Part shown: piece by piece, positions 1,068 to 61,222 of the stretch | Position numbering within the stretch: position 1 is the stretch's first letter | How the letters are laid out: the number at the start of each line of letters is the position of its first letter | DNA from: Malaciobacter marinus | Lineage (GTDB): Bacteria; Campylobacterota; Campylobacteria; Campylobacterales; Arcobacteraceae | Length of the DNA stretch: 64,000 bases | Assembly: GCF_003544855.1 (NCBI RefSeq) | Contig: NZ_CP032101.1 | Coordinates: 1,736,001 to 1,800,000 of the forward strand | Direction: 5' to 3' | Translations under genes and position numbers: made by a program | The notes under the pieces: model-generated | Databases searched by the model: none | The model's input: only the letters and a program-made list of their open reading frames with translations | Told to the model about the DNA's origin: nothing

Positions 1068-3509
1068 CTATTTCATCATCTTTTTTGTTTTATTTGTAGC
1101 TTGTGCTTCATAAGGATTTTGTGGCCAATAGTGCTTCTTGTATTTACCACGAAGCTCTTTTCTTACCTCATCATAAGAGTTTTCCCAAAAACTTTTCAAA
1201 TCATAAGTAATTTGTATTGGTCTTTGAGCAGGAGTTAATAACTCAATTTGTAAAGCAAGTTTATTATTTAAAACTTTTGGTGTTTCATATACTCCAAATA
1301 TCTCTTGTATTTTTATACTTAGTTTTGCAACTTCAATATTTGAGTAATCTATTTTTATCTTTGAACCACTTGGTGCTTCAAAAAAAGCAGGTACTAACTC
1401 ATTTAAAATTTGTTGTTGTTGCCAAGATAAAAGATTAAGTAGTATATTATATAAATCCAATTTCTTTAACTGCTCTATTGTTTTTATAGCGCTTAAATAT
1501 ATACCTAACCATTCATCTAAACTATCTAATAAATATTTTTTTTCAAAAGAAGGAAACTTTAGACTTTTATCATGATAGTTTATAAAATCAACTCTTTGTT
1601 TTAATAAAAGAGATTTCTTATCCCAATTTAATAACTCTAAGCCTTCATTTTTTATAACATTTATTATTAGCTTTGTTAATTTTGTATCATCTAATTTACA
1701 AGGCTTTACATCTAATTGTAAGTGTAAGAAACTAATCACTTCTCTTGAGATAAGTTTATTATTTTGTTTATCAAAACTTACTTCTTGTTCTTTTTTTATA
1801 TGTGTACTAAAATACTTTTTTATATGTTTAAATTCTATTTTTAAAGCTTGATTTATAAAAGAATCTTTTGCTTTAGCATTTATATTAACTACAACTAAAA
1901 AAACTTCATTAAACAAATAGCTATCTTTATGAAGTTTTGCACCTTTATTATTGCTAAGCTTGTATCTTGTATCATTTTCTTCTCTTAACTTTGCTAATCT
2001 ATCAGGATAAGCATATAAAGCTAATACGCCCAAAAGCTCATAAGAAAATTTCTCTTTTTTAATAAACTCAAATTTTTTTAATTTTATAAAGTATTGTCTT
2101 GCCTCTTTTAAAAGTATTGAGTTTTTATCTTTTTCATAACAATCTATAAAAGTAGATAAGATATCGCCTTGTAAACTATTTGCATTTAAAATTGATGCTA
2201 AAATACAAGCTTCATAAGCAAATCCAAGCTCATTTGCTTTTAAAATCATATAGGCAAACCTAGGATGAATTCCCAAACTTATGGCTTTTTTACCAAAAGT
2301 TGTAATTTTGTACTCTTTATCAATCATATTTAGACTTATTAAAAGCTCTTTAGCATGTAAAATAGATGTCTCATTTGGTATATCTAACCAATTTAAATCA
2401 TCAAAATTATCTATTTGCCATAAAGAAAGTTCCAAAAGAGTTTGTGTTAAATCTACTCTTAAAATCTCTGGTTCTGATGTTTTTTCTAAAAGTTTTGACT
2501 CATGCCACAACTTATAACAAACTCCATTTTCTAATCTTCCAGCTCTACCTTGCCTTTGAATAGATGATTCATAAGAAATAAAACTTAAGTTCAAATGGTT
2601 CATACTATTTGAACTATCATATTTTGAAACCTTTTCTAATCCTGTATCAATTACTACATTAACTCCTTTTATAGTTAAAGAGGTTTGTGCAATATTTGTT
2701 GAGAGTATTACTTTTCTTTTACTTTGTTCTTGTATTGCATCATCTTGTTGCTTTTTATCAAGATTTGAATACAAAGGCAATACTAAGATATCTTCACTTA
2801 TATTTAAACTACTTCTTACTTCATTTATCTGTTTTACACCAGCTAAAAAAACTAAAATATCTTTTTTACTATCTCTTAAAGCTTTATAAATAGTATCAAC
2901 TACCAAAGAAGTATCACTATAACTTGGTTGTTTTACATCAGGATTTAAATATATACTTTTTACTTCATAATTTTTTGCAATTGAAGTTATTATAGGTGCA
3001 TCTAAAAAATTAGATAACTTTTTGCTATTTAATGTTGCAGACATTATTAAAAGTTTCAAATCATCTCTTAAATAATCTTGTATTTGTAAAGAAAAAGCCA
3101 ATGACAAATCTGTATAAATACTTCTTTCATGAAACTCATCAAAAATTATTAAACCAATATCATCAATACTTTGATTTGCTTGTATTTTTCTAATCAAAAT
3201 AGCTTCTGTTAGAACTAATATTTTTGTTTGTTTAGAAACACAACTATCAAGTTTAATCTCATAGCCTACTGTTTGCCCTACTTTTTCACCTAGATTTTGT
3301 GCTAATTTATTTGCAATAACTCTTGCAGCTACTCGTCTTGGTTCTAAAACTATGATTTTTTTATTTTTTAAAAAAGTTTCATTTAAAAGTTCTGTAGGAA
3401 CAACTGTACTTTTACCTGCACCCGTTGTTGCTTGTAAAATAACTGTTTTATTTGTTCTTAGCTTTGATTTTAAATCATCTAAGATTTCATATATTGGTAG
3501 TTTATTCAT
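1068..3509 (-). CDS. hrpB: ATP-dependent helicase HrpB
   Basis: The 813-residue protein has the usual HrpB length. It shows Walker A TGAGKST near residue 30, motif II DEFHERS, motif III SAT, motif VI QRQGRAGR, then a long HrpB-type C-terminal region ending in a lysine-rich tail. HrpB is a DEAH-box-type RNA/DNA-dependent ATPase of uncertain cellular role. It stands alone, convergent with nothing and divergent from the parvulin gene. The chosen ATG has no good Shine-Dalgarno, but a short overlapping ATG four bases upstream leads to an immediate stop, so this start is the only sensible one. Confidence 0.92.
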   Translation of the reverse strand: MNKLPIYEILDDLKSKLRTNKTVILQATTGAGKSTVVPTELLNETFLKNKKIIVLEPRRVAARVIANKLAQNLGEKVGQTVGYEIKLDSCVSKQTKILVLTEAILIRKIQANQSIDDIGLIIFDEFHERSIYTDLSLAFSLQIQDYLRDDLKLLIMSATLNSKKLSNFLDAPIITSIAKNYEVKSIYLNPDVKQPSYSDTSLVVDTIYKALRDSKKDILVFLAGVKQINEVRSSLNISEDILVLPLYSNLDKKQQDDAIQEQSKRKVILSTNIAQTSLTIKGVNVVIDTGLEKVSKYDSSNSMNHLNLSFISYESSIQRQGRAGRLENGVCYKLWHESKLLEKTSEPEILRVDLTQTLLELSLWQIDNFDDLNWLDIPNETSILHAKELLISLNMIDKEYKITTFGKKAISLGIHPRFAYMILKANELGFAYEACILASILNANSLQGDILSTFIDCYEKDKNSILLKEARQYFIKLKKFEFIKKEKFSYELLGVLALYAYPDRLAKLREENDTRYKLSNNKGAKLHKDSYLFNEVFLVVVNINAKAKDSFINQALKIEFKHIKKYFSTHIKKEQEVSFDKQNNKLISREVISFLHLQLDVKPCKLDDTKLTKLIINVIKNEGLELLNWDKKSLLLKQRVDFINYHDKSLKFPSFEKKYLLDSLDEWLGIYLSAIKTIEQLKKLDLYNILLNLLSWQQQQILNELVPAFFEAPSGSKIKIDYSNIEVAKLSIKIQEIFGVYETPKVLNNKLALQIELLTPAQRPIQITYDLKSFWENSYDEVRKELRGKYKKHYWPQNPYEAQATNKTKKMMK

Positions 3510-3567
3510 TCATATAATTATACTTAAAAAATCTTTTAGCTACTATTTACTTTGAAAAGGATTTTAT

Positions 3568-3852
3568 ATGGCAAAACAAGCAACAGCAAGACATATTTTA
3601 GTAAATACTGAAAAGTTAGCAAAAAAGATACAAAAAGAGATAAATAATAAAGAAATAAGTTTTGAAAAAGCTGCAAAAAAGTTTTCAAAATGCCCATCAG
3701 GCAAAAAAGGTGGTGAACTTGGAATGTTTAAAAAAGGTGATATGGTAAAAGAGTTTGATGATGTTGTATTTAGTAAAGATTTAAATAAAATACATGGACC
3801 GGTTAAGACTCAATTTGGATTTCACTTAATAGAAATAACGGGAAGAATTTGA
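3568..3852 (+). CDS. ppiC: Peptidyl-prolyl cis-trans isomerase, parvulin (PpiC type)
   Basis: A 94-residue single-domain parvulin, the same size as E. coli PpiC. Family motifs are ARHILV at the N-terminus, the CPSGKKGGELG loop, and the C-terminal GPVKTQFGFHLIEI strand. There is no signal peptide or membrane segment, so it is cytosolic. It would catalyse proline isomerisation during folding. AAAAGGA precedes the ATG as ribosome binding site. It is monocistronic, with the convergent initiator tRNA gene 26 bases downstream. Confidence 0.92.
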   Translation: MAKQATARHILVNTEKLAKKIQKEINNKEISFEKAAKKFSKCPSGKKGGELGMFKKGDMVKEFDDVVFSKDLNKIHGPVKTQFGFHLIEITGRI

Positions 3853-3878
3853 TTTAAATTTTAAGTAAGTTTTTTGAT

Positions 3879-3955
<77 letters not shown>

Positions 3956-4045
3956 TTAAGTTGAATGCAGATTATAGTCACATAAACTTAAAGGGAACAA
4001 AAATACAAGAGTTTAAAAAAAGAATTTGAAAATTCTTTAAACTCT

Positions 4046-4498
4046 TTAGTTCTCAAGCTCCAAACAATCTTGTTTATTTACAGTATAACTAAATAAAGGT
4101 CTATGTTCTGTATCTGTGTAATAATATTTTAATACTAAGCCTTTATTTACAATCATATGATTTAAAAAGTCCACCCTACATACTATTTTTGAATCTTGGT
4201 CAAACATAACAGTTTTAAAATATTCTGATTTATTTTCCCATTTACCTTTCATGATTTCATGATTTAAATCAATACTTTTAAAATAACTTACACTATTTTC
4301 TAAAGCTACAACTTTAGTAACTGTTGTGATTGCATCAATCTTAATTGGAACAGCACTTGCAGTTTTATTTGCTAAGGTTCTAGCAAACTTTTCTATAGAC
4401 ATTGCTTTTATTTTTTCTTTTAACTCTTCTTCATTATTATTATTCATTCCTGCATTTAAAGATAAAAGTAATAACATACTTAAAATTAATGATTTCAT
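4046..4498 (-). CDS. Hypothetical secreted protein
   Basis: 150 residues opening with a signal peptide (MKSLILSMLLLLSLNAG) and an asparagine/glutamate stretch. The rest is mixed alpha/beta with only two cysteines (in VCRVDF and QDCLELEN near the end), which could form a periplasmic disulfide. I recognise no family. It begins five bases after the stop of the upstream 166-residue gene, so the two are very probably co-transcribed. Confidence 0.7.
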   Translation of the reverse strand: MKSLILSMLLLLSLNAGMNNNNEEELKEKIKAMSIEKFARTLANKTASAVPIKIDAITTVTKVVALENSVSYFKSIDLNHEIMKGKWENKSEYFKTVMFDQDSKIVCRVDFLNHMIVNKGLVLKYYYTDTEHRPLFSYTVNKQDCLELEN

Positions 4499-53189: not shown

Positions 53190-54449
53190 ATGGGAAATGA
53201 TATCAAAGAAGTAGCAAAAAAAACTATTAAAAATCTATTTATAAAAAATATTGAACCAACTCCAAATGAGTATCATAAAGAGTTTTGTATAATTGCTAAA
53301 GAGTATAAATTAAATGCGAAAGAATGCACTCAATTTAAAGAATTAGTAAGTAGATTAAATAATGAAGAACAAGAAGAGATAAAAAGTAAAAATATAACTA
53401 CTTTTGAAGATATGATTCCCATACTTTTAAATAGAGTTGCTACAAAAAACTTAAAAACTTTGACATCACTTTTTAAAGAATCTATGACACCATCTATTTC
53501 AATTGGTTTAGATGATAAGATAACAAAATTTTCTGTTAAAATAGGAAATTCTCCAGCACTACTTTTTGAAGAAGAGATTCAAAAAGAGATGCAAAGCTTC
53601 ATCACAAATAGATTTGAAGCTGATAAAAAAGTAGTTCAAGAAAAAACAGCAGAAATTGCAAAGCTTGTAACACTTATGGGTAAGCACTTAAATGAAGCTA
53701 TTTCAAGTAGTGGAGATAGTGGTGTTGAAGTATCAAATATAAAAGATGAAATTCAAGCTATAAATCTTACAGATAATGGAATAAAAGAATTAACAACACT
53801 ACAAAGTAAACTTATAAATGCAGCAATGTCAATAGAAAATGAGATGACAAATGTAGGGGAAAAATTATCTTCTGGAAAAGATAAAGTTCAAGAGCTTGAA
53901 GATAAAGTAAAAACACTTGAAGAACAACTTTCTAAAACAAAAGAAGAGAATTTAAAAGATCATTTAACAGGCTTACTTACTAGAAAAGCATATGAATATG
54001 AAGCTAAAAAAACAGAAGAAAATTATAAAAGAAATGATACACAGTATGCAATAGTATTTTTTGACATTGACCACTTTAAAGCAATCAATGACAAATATGG
54101 TCACGCAGGTGGTGACATGATACTATCTACTTTTGGAAAAATCTTAAGTAAATATACAAGAGATATGGATATTGTAGGAAGATATGGAGGAGAAGAGTTT
54201 ATTGCTATAATTCATTTTAATCTTAAAAGAGAACTTCTAAAATATCTAAAAAGAATCAAAAGTATAGTTACACAAAATAATTTTATCTATGAAAAGAAAA
54301 AGATAAAAATCACTTTTTCAGCTGGGGTTACTATTAGAAATGACCATGAGTCATATGATAGTGCAATACAAAAAGCAGATATGCTTTTATATAAAGCAAA
54401 AGAAGAAGGTAGAAATAAAATTATACTTGAAGATAATACAGTCATATAA
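53190..54449 (+). CDS. Diguanylate cyclase (GGDEF)
   Basis: 419 residues. The N-terminal ~250 residues are helical with a coiled coil (EDKVKTLEEQLSKTKEENL) and no recognised sensor or membrane segment. The GGDEF domain (~260-415) has FFDIDHFKAIND, RYGGEEF (~333) and an inhibitory site RDMD at the correct place, so it should make c-di-GMP with product inhibition. AAAAGGA precedes the ATG. Same strand as the YqeY and HD-GYP genes. Confidence 0.92.
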   Translation: MGNDIKEVAKKTIKNLFIKNIEPTPNEYHKEFCIIAKEYKLNAKECTQFKELVSRLNNEEQEEIKSKNITTFEDMIPILLNRVATKNLKTLTSLFKESMTPSISIGLDDKITKFSVKIGNSPALLFEEEIQKEMQSFITNRFEADKKVVQEKTAEIAKLVTLMGKHLNEAISSSGDSGVEVSNIKDEIQAINLTDNGIKELTTLQSKLINAAMSIENEMTNVGEKLSSGKDKVQELEDKVKTLEEQLSKTKEENLKDHLTGLLTRKAYEYEAKKTEENYKRNDTQYAIVFFDIDHFKAINDKYGHAGGDMILSTFGKILSKYTRDMDIVGRYGGEEFIAIIHFNLKRELLKYLKRIKSIVTQNNFIYEKKKIKITFSAGVTIRNDHESYDSAIQKADMLLYKAKEEGRNKIILEDNTVI

Positions 54450-54563
54450 AGTAAGATTAATTCTTATTTTTTAAATTTTATAATTTAGAAATAATTTTAT
54501 AGTTTTATATACTTTTATTGTTTATATTATGTTAAAATAGTGTAAATAATAAAAGAAGCTATT

Positions 54564-56951
54564 ATGAAAAAGAAATTTTACATAAAGATTAGACCTACAA
54601 TCTCATTTATTTTGGTATTTTTAATAATTTCTGTTATATCTATAACCTTACTTTTACAATATAATTTCTCTTTAGATTTAGCCAAAAATGCAACAAAAGA
54701 TAATTTTTCACAAATCTCTGAAAACGTTGAAGAGAGACTACAAAATTTAGATAAGCGTCATAATGATTTAATATCCATACTTCAACTTTACAAAGAAATA
54801 AAACAAACACCACAAAAAAATAAACGCCACCCTCTTTTGAAACTTATCACAACTGCATTAAATAACAATAAGCATATCTATGCTTTATATGTAGGTCATG
54901 AAGATAATACTTTTTATGAAGTAATAAATCTAAATATAAATGAAAAACTAAGAAAAAAATATAATGCAAATAAAGAAGAAAGATGGCTTATAGTAAAAAT
55001 TTATGATAAAAATGGAACTCATGTAAGATATGATGAATATCTAAACAAAAACTTAATACAAATAAGAAGTATAGAAAGTAAAACAAGTTACCGCCCTACT
55101 TCAAGACCTTGGTACAAAGAAGCAATAAAGGATAATTCTATAATAAGAACTGAGCCATATTTATTTACAAATTTAGATAATTTTGGAGTAACTTATGCAA
55201 AAAAGGTTACTAGTACTAAATCTGTAATTGGTCTTGATTTATCACTTCAAAGTCTTGATAATTTTCTTAAAAAACAAATTCATATTGATAAACAAGGAAT
55301 ATACTTGATAAAAAAAGATATGAAAATAATCTCAAAAGCAGGAAAGAATATAAAAGATAAAAAGATTGATAGTACTTTAAAAGAGAAAATAACAAAAATA
55401 ATAAATACTCAAATAGCTTACAAATCTTTTAGCATGAAAATCAATGATATAAATTATTTTATATATTTTTCTAAAATTGAATCAATTTATAAAAATAAAG
55501 ATTATCTTCTAATTACAGTGCCTCAAGATATAATTATGCAACCATACACAAATAGAATTTTTTATTCATTCTTGATGACTATAGGTCTTCTTAGTTTTAT
55601 TATACCTCTTATTTGGTACTCTACGAAAATTTTAGTAAATCCAATAGAAAAACTTGAAGAACAAAATAACAAAATATTAAGAAGAGAATTCACAAAAGTA
55701 GAAGATATAAATACAAATATTAAAGAGTTAGATGAACTTTCAAAATCTCTTGTAAATATGTCTAAATCTCTTAAAGAATATGAAGATAAACAACAAGAAC
55801 TAATGGATTCATTTATCAAACTTATTGCAAGTGCTATTGATGCAAAATCAAAATATACAGGGGCACATTGTGCAAGAGTTCCAATACTTACTATGTTAAT
55901 AGCAAATAAGGCACATCAAAGCAATGAAAGCATATTTAAAGATTTTACTTTTAAAAATGAAGAAGAAAAAAGAGAACTAAGTATTGCCGCTTGGTTACAT
56001 GATTGTGGAAAAGTTACTACTCCTGAATATGTTGTTGATAAAGCGACTAAACTTGAAACTATATATAATAGAATCCATGAAATAAGAACTAGATTTGAAG
56101 TTATTTATAGAGATATGACTATTCAAATGTACAAAAATATCTTAGATGGAAAAGATAAAAAAGAAGAAGAAAACCTTTTAAAGCAGAAGTTAAATAATCT
56201 ACAAGAAGAGTATAAAATTGTTGCGAAGGCAAATATTGGTTCTGAATTTATGAGTGATGAAGATATAGAAAAAATTAAACAAATATCAAAAAAACAATGG
56301 ACAAGATATTTTGATAAGACAATAGGTTTATCACAAGATGAAGAATCAAGAGTAGATAAAAATAAAATACAAACTCCATGCAAAGAGTATTTATTAAGTG
56401 ATAAAAAAGAGCATATAATAAAAAGAAATAAAGATGACATTAAAGATTATGATAAATACAATTTTAAAATTGATGTACCAAAAGATCTTTATAATTTAGG
56501 AGAAGTATATAATCTATGTATTAAAAAAGGCACACTTACAAATGAAGAAAGGTACAAAATCAATGAACATATCATTATGTCAATTATCATGCTTGAACAA
56601 CTCCCTTTTAGTGACAACTTAAAAAGAGTTCCAGAATATGCAGGAGCACATCATGAAACTCTTATTGGTACAGGATATCCCAAAAAATTAAAAAAACAAG
56701 ACATGTCAATCCCAGCTAGAATCATGGCTATCACTGATATTTTTGAAGCTTTAACAGCATCAGATAGACCATATAAAAAAGCAAAAACATTAAGTGAAGC
56801 TATTGGTATACTTAGTCTTATGGTAAAAGAAAAACATATTGATGAAGATATTTTTAGACTATTTCTAAGCTCAGGCGCATATAAAGAGTATGCTCAAAAA
56901 TACCTAAAAAAAGAACAAATAGATGAAGTAGATATATCTTTATATATCTAA
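54564..56951 (+). CDS. Cache-HD-GYP c-di-GMP phosphodiesterase
   Basis: 795 residues: transmembrane ~13-33, periplasmic dCache domain, transmembrane ~333-353, HAMP-like segment, and an HD-GYP domain with LHDCGK, HHETLIGTGYP and DIFEALTASDRPYKK. A ~150-residue charged insertion lies between HDCGK and the GYP part. The Cache module keeps Y-x4-R-P-W-Y and the next Tyr of the amino-acid motif, but has Phe where the first Asp should be, so its ligand may differ. Its 3' end overlaps the convergent GGDEF-EAL gene by four bases. Confidence 0.9.
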   Translation: MKKKFYIKIRPTISFILVFLIISVISITLLLQYNFSLDLAKNATKDNFSQISENVEERLQNLDKRHNDLISILQLYKEIKQTPQKNKRHPLLKLITTALNNNKHIYALYVGHEDNTFYEVINLNINEKLRKKYNANKEERWLIVKIYDKNGTHVRYDEYLNKNLIQIRSIESKTSYRPTSRPWYKEAIKDNSIIRTEPYLFTNLDNFGVTYAKKVTSTKSVIGLDLSLQSLDNFLKKQIHIDKQGIYLIKKDMKIISKAGKNIKDKKIDSTLKEKITKIINTQIAYKSFSMKINDINYFIYFSKIESIYKNKDYLLITVPQDIIMQPYTNRIFYSFLMTIGLLSFIIPLIWYSTKILVNPIEKLEEQNNKILRREFTKVEDINTNIKELDELSKSLVNMSKSLKEYEDKQQELMDSFIKLIASAIDAKSKYTGAHCARVPILTMLIANKAHQSNESIFKDFTFKNEEEKRELSIAAWLHDCGKVTTPEYVVDKATKLETIYNRIHEIRTRFEVIYRDMTIQMYKNILDGKDKKEEENLLKQKLNNLQEEYKIVAKANIGSEFMSDEDIEKIKQISKKQWTRYFDKTIGLSQDEESRVDKNKIQTPCKEYLLSDKKEHIIKRNKDDIKDYDKYNFKIDVPKDLYNLGEVYNLCIKKGTLTNEERYKINEHIIMSIIMLEQLPFSDNLKRVPEYAGAHHETLIGTGYPKKLKKQDMSIPARIMAITDIFEALTASDRPYKKAKTLSEAIGILSLMVKEKHIDEDIFRLFLSSGAYKEYAQKYLKKEQIDEVDISLYI

Positions 56952-58870
56952 TCATCAAAAGATTTAGGTTTATCAAATAAAAAACCTTGACAATAATCAA
57001 CATTTAAAATTTTTAACTTTTCATAAAGTTCATTTGAAAATACATGTTTTGCAATAACTTTAATATCTGCTTCTTTTGCAAAATTTATAATATTTTTTAC
57101 AAAAAGATAAGCTATTTTATCTTCTAAAATAGATTTTATAATATCACCATCAATTTTTATATAATCAACTTTTATTGAACATAGATAATGTAAATTTGAA
57201 TATCCCACTCCAAAATTATCTATATATATTTTATAACCCAATTCTTTTAATTTTAAAAGATTTTCTTTTACTTTATTATCTTTTACAATTTTTTCATTTA
57301 ATATAATTTCTAAGCCTAATCTATTTGATATATCTTTATCTAAAAATGCATTCTTTTCAAGTAATTTTATTATTGAATCATTTTTTATATCCTGAGAGTT
57401 TAAATTTACATTTAAAAACATAGTCTTATTCTTTCTTAATCTTTCAAAACAAATTTTTAAAACTCTTTTTGAAATATTTCTTAGAATAAAAGTTCCTTTT
57501 ATAGAAGAAATAATATCTATTGGTTCAGCAATTGAATTATCTTTTTTTCTGATTCTTAATAATGCTTCTGAAAAAATTTCTTCTTTAGTATAAGTATCTA
57601 CAACTTTTTGATAAAAGCAAAAGACTCTTTTTTCATCTAAAGCTTCTTTTATTTCATTTATAGATAGTTTATTATCATCGTGAACTTGAGAGTTTTCATT
57701 GTAAATTTGAATATTGTTTCGACCTTTGTCTTTAGCTAAGTATAGAGCTTTATCTGCTAGTTTAAAAGCTTCTTCAAAGTTTTTTGATTTTGCTGGTTGT
57801 AAATTAACTCCAATAGATACAGTAATATCCAAATTAGACTTATTTGAAATAGGAAATTTTTCTTTTTGAATATTTGTAAATATCCTTTCAATGACATTTA
57901 AAGCTATTAAATTATCATTTCGTTTAACTTTTGCAAAGATAAGAAACTCTTCTCCACCATATCTAATAACAATATCATCTTTTTTTCGTGTAGATTTTAA
58001 AATAATAACAGCAACTTGTTTTAATATTTTATCTCCAATATTATGTCCATAATTATCATTTACAAGTTTAAAATTATCAATATCAATTGCTGCAATAATA
58101 TAATCATCTAAATTTATAAACTCTTCATACTCTTGTAAATAGTTTCTATTAAAAACATTTGTTAATTTATCTGTATACGCACTTTGTTTGACTGAAATAT
58201 ATCTTTTTGATTGAATTAATAAAACAAATAAAAATAATAAAAGTATAAAAATTACTATAATTATAGTATCTTTTATTATAGAGATAATATCATTTATCTC
58301 TTTAACTTTTTTTATTGAAAAATCAATTGCTAAAATTAAAATTACTTCATTATTTTGGATAATCGGAACTAAATATGTAATTGAAATCTGTTTTAAATAT
58401 TTATTTTGAATAATTATAGGTGCTTTAGTATCAAATAACATTAGCCATTTTTTATTATCTATGTCAAACTTTTGATTAGGGAAAGCTTTATTTAGACCTT
58501 TTGCACCATCAACTAAAAATCTAAATACACCCCTGTTATCTTTATAAAGTAAATATGCATATTTTATATTTTGCGTAACTAAAGTTTCTAAGTTTGTTTC
58601 TATTTTATTATGAAAATTTCTATTTTCTAATATTTGTTCAACATAATTTTTATCTTTATCTAATGTTTCTTTTATACTCTTAGCACTATTTAAAACAATT
58701 GATTTAACATCAGCAGTTGAAATCTGAATCATCTTTTTTTCTATATTTTCTTCAAGTTTTATTGTTCCTAAAAGAAGTAGAAATAAAATAAACGATATAA
58801 TAACAGCAAATATAATTAAAAGATGTGAATCCTTTAATTCAAAAAAAGTTTTCAAACTAAAAATCCTCAA
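56948..58870 (-). CDS. Membrane GGDEF-EAL protein with degenerate EAL
   Basis: 640 residues: transmembrane ~17-39, a periplasmic Cache-like domain, transmembrane ~200-222, GGDEF domain (IDIDNFKLVND, RYGGEEF), then EAL (SEALLR). The inhibitory-site arginine is displaced by one residue. In the EAL domain, DDFG is DNFG and the catalytic AEGV is AKHV, so two key acidic residues are lost. Synthesis of c-di-GMP with a binding-only EAL is likely. It is the last gene of the TonB-type receptor operon and overlaps the gene before it by 14 bases. Confidence 0.88.
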   Translation of the reverse strand: MRIFSLKTFFELKDSHLLIIFAVIISFILFLLLLGTIKLEENIEKKMIQISTADVKSIVLNSAKSIKETLDKDKNYVEQILENRNFHNKIETNLETLVTQNIKYAYLLYKDNRGVFRFLVDGAKGLNKAFPNQKFDIDNKKWLMLFDTKAPIIIQNKYLKQISITYLVPIIQNNEVILILAIDFSIKKVKEINDIISIIKDTIIIVIFILLLFLFVLLIQSKRYISVKQSAYTDKLTNVFNRNYLQEYEEFINLDDYIIAAIDIDNFKLVNDNYGHNIGDKILKQVAVIILKSTRKKDDIVIRYGGEEFLIFAKVKRNDNLIALNVIERIFTNIQKEKFPISNKSNLDITVSIGVNLQPAKSKNFEEAFKLADKALYLAKDKGRNNIQIYNENSQVHDDNKLSINEIKEALDEKRVFCFYQKVVDTYTKEEIFSEALLRIRKKDNSIAEPIDIISSIKGTFILRNISKRVLKICFERLRKNKTMFLNVNLNSQDIKNDSIIKLLEKNAFLDKDISNRLGLEIILNEKIVKDNKVKENLLKLKELGYKIYIDNFGVGYSNLHYLCSIKVDYIKIDGDIIKSILEDKIAYLFVKNIINFAKEADIKVIAKHVFSNELYEKLKILNVDYCQGFLFDKPKSFDD

Positions 58871-59312
58871 TAAATTTATTATAGCTTTTTGGTAATAGTA
58901 TTTTTTTAGTTCTTAGTCTATTTTTTATAAATACTATATTGGGTCTACTTTTACTCCAAAAAAATGCCCCAAAATATATATCTTTATTTAATAATTTTTT
59001 ATAATTATTTGTAAAAAACAATCTTTTGTTATTTAAGCATTTTGGATCTATTTTTATATTTTTCTTTACAAAAACAAAATTTGACTTTTCACATTTATCA
59101 ACTAAAGTGAAAATTTTCGAATATACCTTTTTTTCAACTTTTGAAATATTTGGGATAAAAAGCTTTATTTCACCTTTGGTTGCTAAAGTTGCGATATTTG
59201 CAATAATTTTTGCTTCCAATTCCATTTCTTTATTATATTTATTTATCAAAAATGTATATTGGTCTGATGTAGCAAATGAAATAAGTGTTAACATTAAAAT
59301 TAAAGCTCTCAT
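58857..59312 (-). CDS. Small periplasmic protein, YfiR-like (tentative)
   Basis: 151 residues from the ATG at 59312, which overlaps the receptor stop (TAATG); an upstream in-frame start (59324) is less likely. Signal peptide MRALILMLTLISFATS, then a domain with two cysteines and the C-terminal stretch GAFFWSKSRPNIVFIKNRL, resembling the YfiR/HmsC-like (DUF4154) family that controls inner-membrane diguanylate cyclases. It sits between the receptor and the cyclase gene, as a go-between would. The family call is moderate. Confidence 0.62.
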   Translation of the reverse strand: MRALILMLTLISFATSDQYTFLINKYNKEMELEAKIIANIATLATKGEIKLFIPNISKVEKKVYSKIFTLVDKCEKSNFVFVKKNIKIDPKCLNNKRLFFTNNYKKLLNKDIYFGAFFWSKSRPNIVFIKNRLRTKKILLPKSYNKFIEDF

Positions 59313-61222
59313 TAGAACACCCACTTCATAGAAACATTAAAGTTTTTACCATGATCTTCAAAAGCAAAATCATCTCCTGGAAAACCATCTTTATATAAAG
59401 ATTCTGTAGATTTATCTAAGATATTAATACCCTTAATACTTAAACTTAAATCATCACTAAAGTAGTATGTAGCACCTAAATTTAAATCATAACTTGCATC
59501 AACATCAACATCCAAATAACTATATGAATTTTTGTAAATAAGTGAAGCGAAATATTCCCACTTATCTCTTTTACCCATATACTTTACATATCCACCTTTA
59601 TTTGAATTATTTAGTTCTTCACTTAATTTTGTAGTATAGTAACTAATCTCAAACTTATTATTATTTTCAAAAAGATATTCATAATTAAAAATAAGACCTT
59701 CGCTTTTAATTGTATGATCAATATTCATTGTTCCAATAGGAGAAAAATAAATAAAATCATTAATTTTCACATTACTATACTTCACTCTATATTTTGAATT
59801 TGTTGTCGTATAGACACCTTCTAATGTATAAAAGTTATATTTTTGTGTATTTAAATATGGCTTGTCTTTTCTTGCAGAATCAACATCATAAAATGAAGGA
59901 GGTAAAAAAGTTTTAGTATAAAATGCTTTTAAGCCAAAATTATCAAAAGGAGTAAAAATAGCACCTATTCTATAAAGTTCTTCTGAGGCATCATCCAAAA
60001 ATCCACTTCGTTCATATCTATCAAATTTTGCATTAGCAACAAAAGATAATTTTTCATTTATTTTAAGCTTATCTTGTAAAAGTAACGAATAAATATTTTC
60101 CTCATCAAAATCATGATATTCTCCTACATTTGTAGTCTGATTTAAAAAATTTACAGTTTTTCTATTATTGACTTCATATTTTTTCTTTGAAAAGTTTATT
60201 CCTGCTAATAAGGAGTTGTTTTTATAATTGTGTGTTTTAGATAAATGCGCATGAAACTTCTTTAAAGTTAAATCTTCTTTAAATTTTTTGGGTATAGTCA
60301 TACCCATATTTTTTAAATCTAATACAGGTATTAAGCCTATTCCTTCATCATTTTCTTCATAATATTTTCTAGTATTTATATCTAAAGATAAAGATAATTT
60401 TAAAGAGTTGTCATATAAAAATTTTCTTGTAAAATCAATAAAAAAATCTTTTGATTTTATTTCTCCCTCATTTGGTACTACATCAAGTGAAAGTCCCATG
60501 AAGTTGTCTTTTTTTACATCAGCATAGCCTATGTTTATATCTGTTTTATCATTACTAATATCAAGATAAAAATATCTTCTTTTTGAATGATTTTTTAACT
60601 CTTCAGACTTATAGTTTGCATCTTTATTTGAATCTAAATTTTTCAAAAAAGTAAGATAAGACCAACCATTTTCAAAAGTTTGTGAATGAACAATTGATTG
60701 TGAATTTGTTCCTTGCTTTTGAGCACTAACTCTTAGCTCACTTGCATTTTCTTTGTAAGCCTTTTTTGTGTAAATTCTAATAAAATAAATACCTGTATCA
60801 TTTCCCAAAGCAAAAGAGCTATCTCCATAATAAACCTCAATATAATCCACAAAATCTAAAGGCAAATTACCCCAACTAAGAAAAGGTGATTGAGAATGAA
60901 CAGAAGAAATCTCATGGTCATTGATAAAGAATCTAAAAAAGCCACTAACAGTTGTCTTTGTACCTGCTAAAGAAAGACTTGGTATACCATATCTATTATG
61001 ATTGAAGTTAATTAAAGGTAATTCTTTTAATATATCACTTAATTTTGTATACTGCATAAGTCTAATATCTTTTTGTGAATAGACAAAAACATGACCTAAA
61101 TTTTCATCAACAGTTTGCAAAGATTTTTCTGAAGTTTCTTTATAGTTTTTAAGTAAAGAATCTAAATTTTGAGCATTAAGTGTGTTAAAAAAAATAAAAA
61201 TAAAAATAATTAACTTCTTCAT
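59312..61222 (-). CDS. TonB-dependent-receptor-like outer-membrane protein
   Basis: 636 residues: signal peptide, an N-terminal stretch LDSLLKNYKETSEKSLQTVD, a plug domain (VFVYSQKDIRLMQYTKLSDI, then VDYIEVYYGDSSF), a beta-barrel, and a C-terminal KWVF with the aromatic end residue required for barrel insertion. No siderophore or nutrient gene is adjacent; instead a YfiR-like protein and a GGDEF-EAL protein follow with overlapping starts. A signalling receptor is more likely than simple uptake. AGGGGAAAT precedes the ATG. Confidence 0.85.
   Translation of the reverse strand: MKKLIIFIFIFFNTLNAQNLDSLLKNYKETSEKSLQTVDENLGHVFVYSQKDIRLMQYTKLSDILKELPLINFNHNRYGIPSLSLAGTKTTVSGFFRFFINDHEISSVHSQSPFLSWGNLPLDFVDYIEVYYGDSSFALGNDTGIYFIRIYTKKAYKENASELRVSAQKQGTNSQSIVHSQTFENGWSYLTFLKNLDSNKDANYKSEELKNHSKRRYFYLDISNDKTDINIGYADVKKDNFMGLSLDVVPNEGEIKSKDFFIDFTRKFLYDNSLKLSLSLDINTRKYYEENDEGIGLIPVLDLKNMGMTIPKKFKEDLTLKKFHAHLSKTHNYKNNSLLAGINFSKKKYEVNNRKTVNFLNQTTNVGEYHDFDEENIYSLLLQDKLKINEKLSFVANAKFDRYERSGFLDDASEELYRIGAIFTPFDNFGLKAFYTKTFLPPSFYDVDSARKDKPYLNTQKYNFYTLEGVYTTTNSKYRVKYSNVKINDFIYFSPIGTMNIDHTIKSEGLIFNYEYLFENNNKFEISYYTTKLSEELNNSNKGGYVKYMGKRDKWEYFASLIYKNSYSYLDVDVDASYDLNLGATYYFSDDLSLSIKGINILDKSTESLYKDGFPGDDFAFEDHGKNFNVSMKWVF

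Follow-up and report, generated by a model that had tools for sequence, protein, structure and literature searches.

A conserved operon of Campylobacterota encoding a TonB-receptor-like protein, a small protein with a predicted YfiR-like fold and a GGDEF-EAL protein: a candidate cross-envelope relay

How enzymes of cyclic di-GMP (c-di-GMP) metabolism sense the outside of the cell is, to our knowledge, mostly unknown. Here we describe a three-gene operon in a 64,000-nucleotide stretch of Malaciobacter marinus contig NZ_CP032101.1 (the window), part of a 2.9 Mb Arcobacter-type (Campylobacterota) chromosome, that encodes a TonB-dependent-receptor-like outer-membrane protein, a small secreted protein which we call SM, and an inner-membrane GGDEF-EAL protein, and that we read as a candidate relay across the cell envelope. 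Receptors are known to signal across the envelope in the FecA-FecR and FpvA-FpvR systems, and in this respect they are comparable. However, those systems use an STN domain, an inner-membrane anti-sigma factor and TonB, whereas a Pfam scan finds no STN signalling domain in the receptor described here, in which only ∼20 residues separate the signal peptide from the plug, and the operon contains no sigma or anti-sigma gene.

The operon also resembles the YfiBNR/TpbB system of Pseudomonas aeruginosa (HmsCDE in Yersinia), which likewise has an outer-membrane part, a periplasmic protein of YfiR fold and an inner-membrane GGDEF protein. In that system YfiN, the cyclase, is inhibited by YfiR, which YfiB retains at the outer membrane; for YfiB the requirements are anchoring in the membrane and binding of peptidoglycan, not a known ligand (PMC3375315). 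A 2012 report described YfiR-YfiN pairs whose outputs include kinases, GGDEF-EAL proteins and others, and most of these pairs had no YfiB (PMC3375315). Modular outputs are seen with SM too. The differences are that the outer-membrane part is here a TonB-receptor-like barrel (Plug plus TonB barrel) and there the OmpA-like lipoprotein YfiB, no copy of which is found in the operon; that SM lies outside DUF4154, the YfiR family, by sequence; and that the periplasmic domain of its partner is not CHASE8, the YfiN-type periplasmic domain. The word TonB is absent from the main text of the 2012 report (PMC3375315), and a search that covered few subscription journals and no preprints returned no paper that treats TonB receptors and YfiR-like or DUF4154 proteins as one system. 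The combination thus seems undescribed, and its parts and principle are of known kinds.

The three genes lie on the minus strand at coordinates 56948-61222 in the order receptor, SM, GGDEF-EAL protein (Table 1), and both gene reading and Pfam bear out the preliminary description of the window in this regard. The TAATG overlap that it gave for the first junction is likewise correct, the receptor stop and the SM start having one base in common. It also proposed an overlap of 14 bases between SM and the cyclase, which is doubtful because it requires a TTG start at 58870; the TTG at 58855, with a GAGGA 8 nucleotides 5' of it, fits better and would separate the two genes by 1 base. In relatives, too, the operon genes lie a few bases apart or overlap by as little, in agreement with the tight coupling proposed. 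As also described, no uptake genes adjoin the operon. A promoter scan upstream of it gave fewer matches than were found in shuffled sequence.

Relatives of SM are present in 46 of 104 genomes examined from the family, representing 13 of 20 genera. By profile they occur in 90 of 397 genomes sampled across the phylum (25 of 68 genera). An alignment-based scan recovered named relatives in Arcobacter, Aliarcobacter, Sulfurospirillum, Sulfurimonas, Sulfuricurvum and Nitratiruptor, whereas a pattern built on SM alone gave none; no relative was found on a plasmid. We read the surroundings of 80 SM genes across several families of the phylum, and these show a receptor upstream at 78 loci, a signalling output downstream at 76, and both at 75. 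The preliminary description had made its case depend on the order being kept in relatives, and its retention at 75 of 80 loci is not due to chance. The exceptions are L053, L066, L099, L113 and L127 (L numbers denote loci of our survey), and at L127 a GGDEF-EAL gene is present, albeit on the far side of the receptor.

We note several irregular copies of the locus. Those at L042, L046, L056, L064 and L090 are broken, SM being interrupted by an in-frame stop or the receptor frame being split or cut short, through either assembly error or decay. At L098 two receptors of the SM-linked class stand in tandem (337-2223 and 2220-4082) before one SM and one GGDEF-EAL gene. An Arcobacter-like locus (L191) comes from a metagenome-assembled genome record titled Helicobacter pylori PMSS1, a title that is probably a mislabel.

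The outputs linked to SM comprise 52 GGDEF-EAL proteins, 20 proteins with GGDEF alone, and four membrane histidine kinases (L067, L069, L070 and L124, the last recognised by kinase profile only). The L124 kinase has the same periplasmic domain as the cyclases, which is not obviously so for the other three. CHASE8 was not among the matches listed for 16 segments of the outputs' periplasmic domains. The GG[DE]EF motif is intact in 68 of the 72 linked GGDEF outputs and, scored on the residues generally held to be needed for catalysis, the EAL site is intact in 48 of 53 aligned sequences. The protein in the window had been described as a GGDEF-EAL cyclase, and it does have both domains by Pfam and an intact GGEEF, but its set of bifunctional residues is incomplete, two substitutions (D to N, E to K) probably inactivating the EAL domain; the output here would thus be c-di-GMP synthesis. 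In all four linked proteins of one genus (L106, L118, L123 and L125) the GGDEF motif is degenerate and the EAL residues are intact, so that these would break down c-di-GMP. Since the same first two genes precede synthesis, breakdown and phosphorelay outputs, they look like a sensory front end.

SM had been called YfiR-like, which holds for its predicted fold and not for its sequence family. Searches with phmmer and profiles gave no match to SM in Pfam, NCBIfam or the PDB, none of 32 SM homologues matched DUF4154 (PF13689) at E<=1, and the whole genome has no PF13689 match. An AlphaFold (AF2) model built with the 32 homologues has a predicted local distance difference test score (pLDDT) of 90 and a predicted template modelling score (pTM) of 0.78, as compared with a pLDDT of only 38 for a single-sequence run. 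This model matches YfiR (4xjy_D) with Z 9.5 at 3.1 Å over 123 residues, and further YfiR entries with Z 8.7-9.4. Top among its structural matches (Z ∼10) stand 3lkv and a single-lobe binding protein from Rhodothermus, and folds other than YfiR and substrate-binding lobes score Z 7 or less. The nearest neighbours of YfiR given in the paper on its structure are 3LFT and an uncharacterised protein of V. cholerae (PMC4655355); 3lkv (a V. cholerae protein) and 3lft, which appear to be these V. cholerae and S. pneumoniae neighbours, are also matched by the SM model. Because YfiR's own neighbours are recovered in this way, a YfiR-like fold, one half of the second point on which the preliminary description had made its case depend, is supported for the modelled protein, although substrate-binding lobes tie with YfiR. 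The most conserved part of SM is near its C-terminus, where the motif GAFFWxKxRPNIVF is matched in 78 of 80 sequences; the C-terminus of YfiR contacts YfiN (PMC3375315). Most SM proteins share two conserved cysteines, which some distant homologues lack, including those at L069 and L070, which have kinase outputs.

The receptor contains plug (PF07715) and barrel (PF00593) domains above the Pfam cut-off, as expected of the TonB-type receptor that it was taken for, but has no recognisable TonB box. The genome encodes 17 plug proteins and four TonB-type proteins, and the other 16 receptors all have a TonB-box-like stretch after the signal peptide. Our TonB-box pattern was derived from these 16, so that its presence in 16/16 is built in, and the pattern is tested only by the other sets. 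(A first pattern was dropped as too loose, most of its matches in linked receptors falling in signal peptides.) None of 74 SM-linked receptors contains the pattern, and 71 of them have (L/I)DxLLxxY in its place, with further nearly fixed positions at T37, G43, M56 and L61. The pattern is present in most of 28 receptors from other genomes (18/24 further controls by count). Two controls without it, L239 and L242, have SL(D/N)ELL at this place and an overlapping YfiR-type gene, recognised by eye, directly upstream; a third, L244, has no YfiR-type neighbour in the stretch covered. These sequences suggest that YfiR-linked receptors may have exchanged TonB for a periplasmic partner. Distance matrices of the components correlate at 0.84-0.95, which reflects shared descent and is not taken as proof of contact.

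Genuine YfiR genes are found beside receptors elsewhere. Within the same phylum, true DUF4154 genes adjoin receptors at L194, L196 and L197. Plasmids of Sphingobium and Indioceanicola (Alphaproteobacteria) have a receptor, a YfiR (DUF4154) gene and a CHASE8 hybrid kinase in the same order, the CHASE8 scan having covered these kinases apart from the output of Sphingobium TomTYG65; we found no papers describing such operons. They share with the SM operon the succession of receptor, YfiR-fold protein and inner-membrane sensor, and differ from it in their true DUF4154 and CHASE8 families, their kinase output, and a receptor of another family. Pseudoalteromonas (Gammaproteobacteria) also has this order on a plasmid, with a receptor spread over two frames, then YfiR, then a protein in which GGDEF and EAL domains were recognised from the sequence. 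Longer open frames at L195 and L196 (∼510 and at least 670 amino acids) carry DUF4154 as their N-terminal domain, which suggests a fusion of relay and output.

We consider it probable, if well short of certain, that receptor, SM and inner-membrane output form a cross-envelope relay similar to YfiBNR, with a barrel derived from a TonB receptor replacing YfiB. This reading follows from the retained order and the exchange of outputs behind the same two partners, the L124 kinase keeping the cyclases' periplasmic domain; from the match of the SM model to YfiR and the same order of true YfiR genes in other classes; and from the TonB-box pattern (0/74 linked receptors as against 16/16 others), the L239 and L242 receptors adjoining YfiR-type genes. 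The cross-envelope c-di-GMP switch proposed in the preliminary description is thereby supported, the signal relay itself being something we infer. The receptor plug and N-terminal tail would change in response to a ligand outside the cell or to the condition of the outer membrane, and the tail, with DxLLxxY in place of a TonB box, would bind or release SM in the periplasm. Capture of SM by the receptor would turn the output on, in this genome presumably c-di-GMP synthesis; by analogy with YfiR, the sign would be inhibition relieved by sequestration.

Several points weigh against this relay. The contacts between its components are ones that we infer; hhalign gives no sequence link between SM and DUF4154 (probability 2.6%, E 0.017); the SM fold is matched just as well by single substrate-binding-protein lobes (Z 9.9-10.3); and the partner's periplasmic domain, besides not being CHASE8, is without a clear Pfam match. 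Loci L066, L099 and L113 have no adjacent output. Since TonB boxes are weakly conserved, the lack of a pattern taken from 16 sequences does not prove that a receptor works without TonB.

The match to substrate-binding lobes raises the alternative that SM is a single-lobe ligand carrier, such that the receptor imports a ligand and loaded SM activates the cyclase or kinase sensor, with a positive sign. Binding proteins activate some chemoreceptors when loaded, and the partner domain weakly resembles Cache/PDC, a fold that often senses small molecules. We nonetheless regard a carrier as unlikely, as a single lobe offers no canonical interlobe ligand cleft, active import is doubtful for linked receptors in which the TonB-box pattern is missing, no uptake genes stand alongside, and genuine YfiR genes hold the same slot elsewhere. 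It could also be supposed that this is an ordinary nutrient receptor operon, with an unrelated c-di-GMP enzyme co-transcribed and the small protein serving receptor assembly or uptake; gene 1 does encode a TonB-receptor-like barrel, and a signalling role is deduced from genes, sequences and models. However, an unrelated cyclase would hardly be kept beside SM in 76 of 80 loci, other signalling proteins, including one with the same periplasmic domain, take its place at some loci, and the receptor is without the usual TonB box, all of which leaves this explanation with very little to commend it.

The missing TonB-box pattern would also suit a receptor that senses the state of the envelope, such as damage to the outer membrane or the folding of barrels, instead of a soluble ligand, and that passes this on through SM. 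YfiB is thought to sense cell stress. As the counterpart of the receptor in YfiBNR, YfiB relies on anchoring and peptidoglycan binding and has no known ligand (PMC3375315). Yet a full plug and barrel would be an elaborate device for stress sensing, and the barrel is more variable than the plug (mean distance 0.72 vs 0.59), as expected of ligand-facing surfaces, so that we judge pure envelope sensing improbable.

For the relay of receptor, SM and output, a broader and more tentative proposal, which may well not hold, is that widespread receptors derived from TonB transporters gave up transport and that a conserved (L/I)DxLLxxY tail, taking over from the TonB box, binds YfiR-fold relays, so that these receptors serve signalling alone and drive c-di-GMP or phosphorelay outputs in several classes. 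If the reading as a YfiBNR-like relay is correct, a receptor gene beside a YfiR-fold gene and a cyclase or kinase gene would be a general genetic address for matching outside signals to c-di-GMP or phosphorelay outputs, and an outer-membrane partner would be supplied for the many YfiR-YfiN pairs without YfiB (PMC3375315).

Table 1. Coordinates of the operon genes and their features within the window.
Feature	Coordinates	Strand	Remarks
Receptor, TonB-dependent-receptor-like outer-membrane protein, 636 amino acids, operon gene 1	59312..61222	-	Pfam Plug 41-142 and TonB_dep_Rec barrel 247-600, both above cut-off
Receptor N-terminal motif LDSLLKNY, residues 20-27	61142..61165	-	L23 93%, L24 97%, Y27 85% conserved
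Receptor plug domain	60797..61102	-	Pfam PF07715, E 2.4e-7
SM, small secreted protein, 151 amino acids, putative periplasmic relay	58857..59312	-	ATG at 59312; signal-peptide-like stretch at about residues 1-16 (read from sequence); YfiR-like predicted fold
Most conserved SM segment, GAFFWxKSRPNIVFIKNRL, residues 115-133	58914..58970	-	F117, K121, R123, P124 and I126 invariant in 32 sequences
Inner-membrane GGDEF-EAL protein, N-terminal membrane anchor	56948..58855	-	Pfam GGDEF 8.9e-35, EAL 2.6e-47; TTG start 58855 favoured, 58870 possible
Predicted periplasmic sensor domain, flanked by two hydrophobic helices	58286..58759	-	Common to GGDEF-only outputs and the L124 kinase; weak Cache/PDC resemblance
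GGDEF domain, intact GGEEF	57713..58180	-	Pfam
EAL domain, probably inactive in this copy	56966..57658	-	N replaces the second D of DDFG, and K the E of AEG

Genes of c-di-GMP type cluster in this part of the window, with three at 53190-61222 when the operon's cyclase is counted. A plus-strand GGDEF protein (53190-54449) is followed by an HD_5 protein (54564-56951, plus strand), the two lying tail to tail with the operon. This neighbourhood of GGDEF and HD_5 genes is mostly absent beyond the genus and is present in four same-genus relatives. The protein at 54564-56951 shows, in addition to HD_5, a weak Cache match and a GYP-like GTGYPK stretch.

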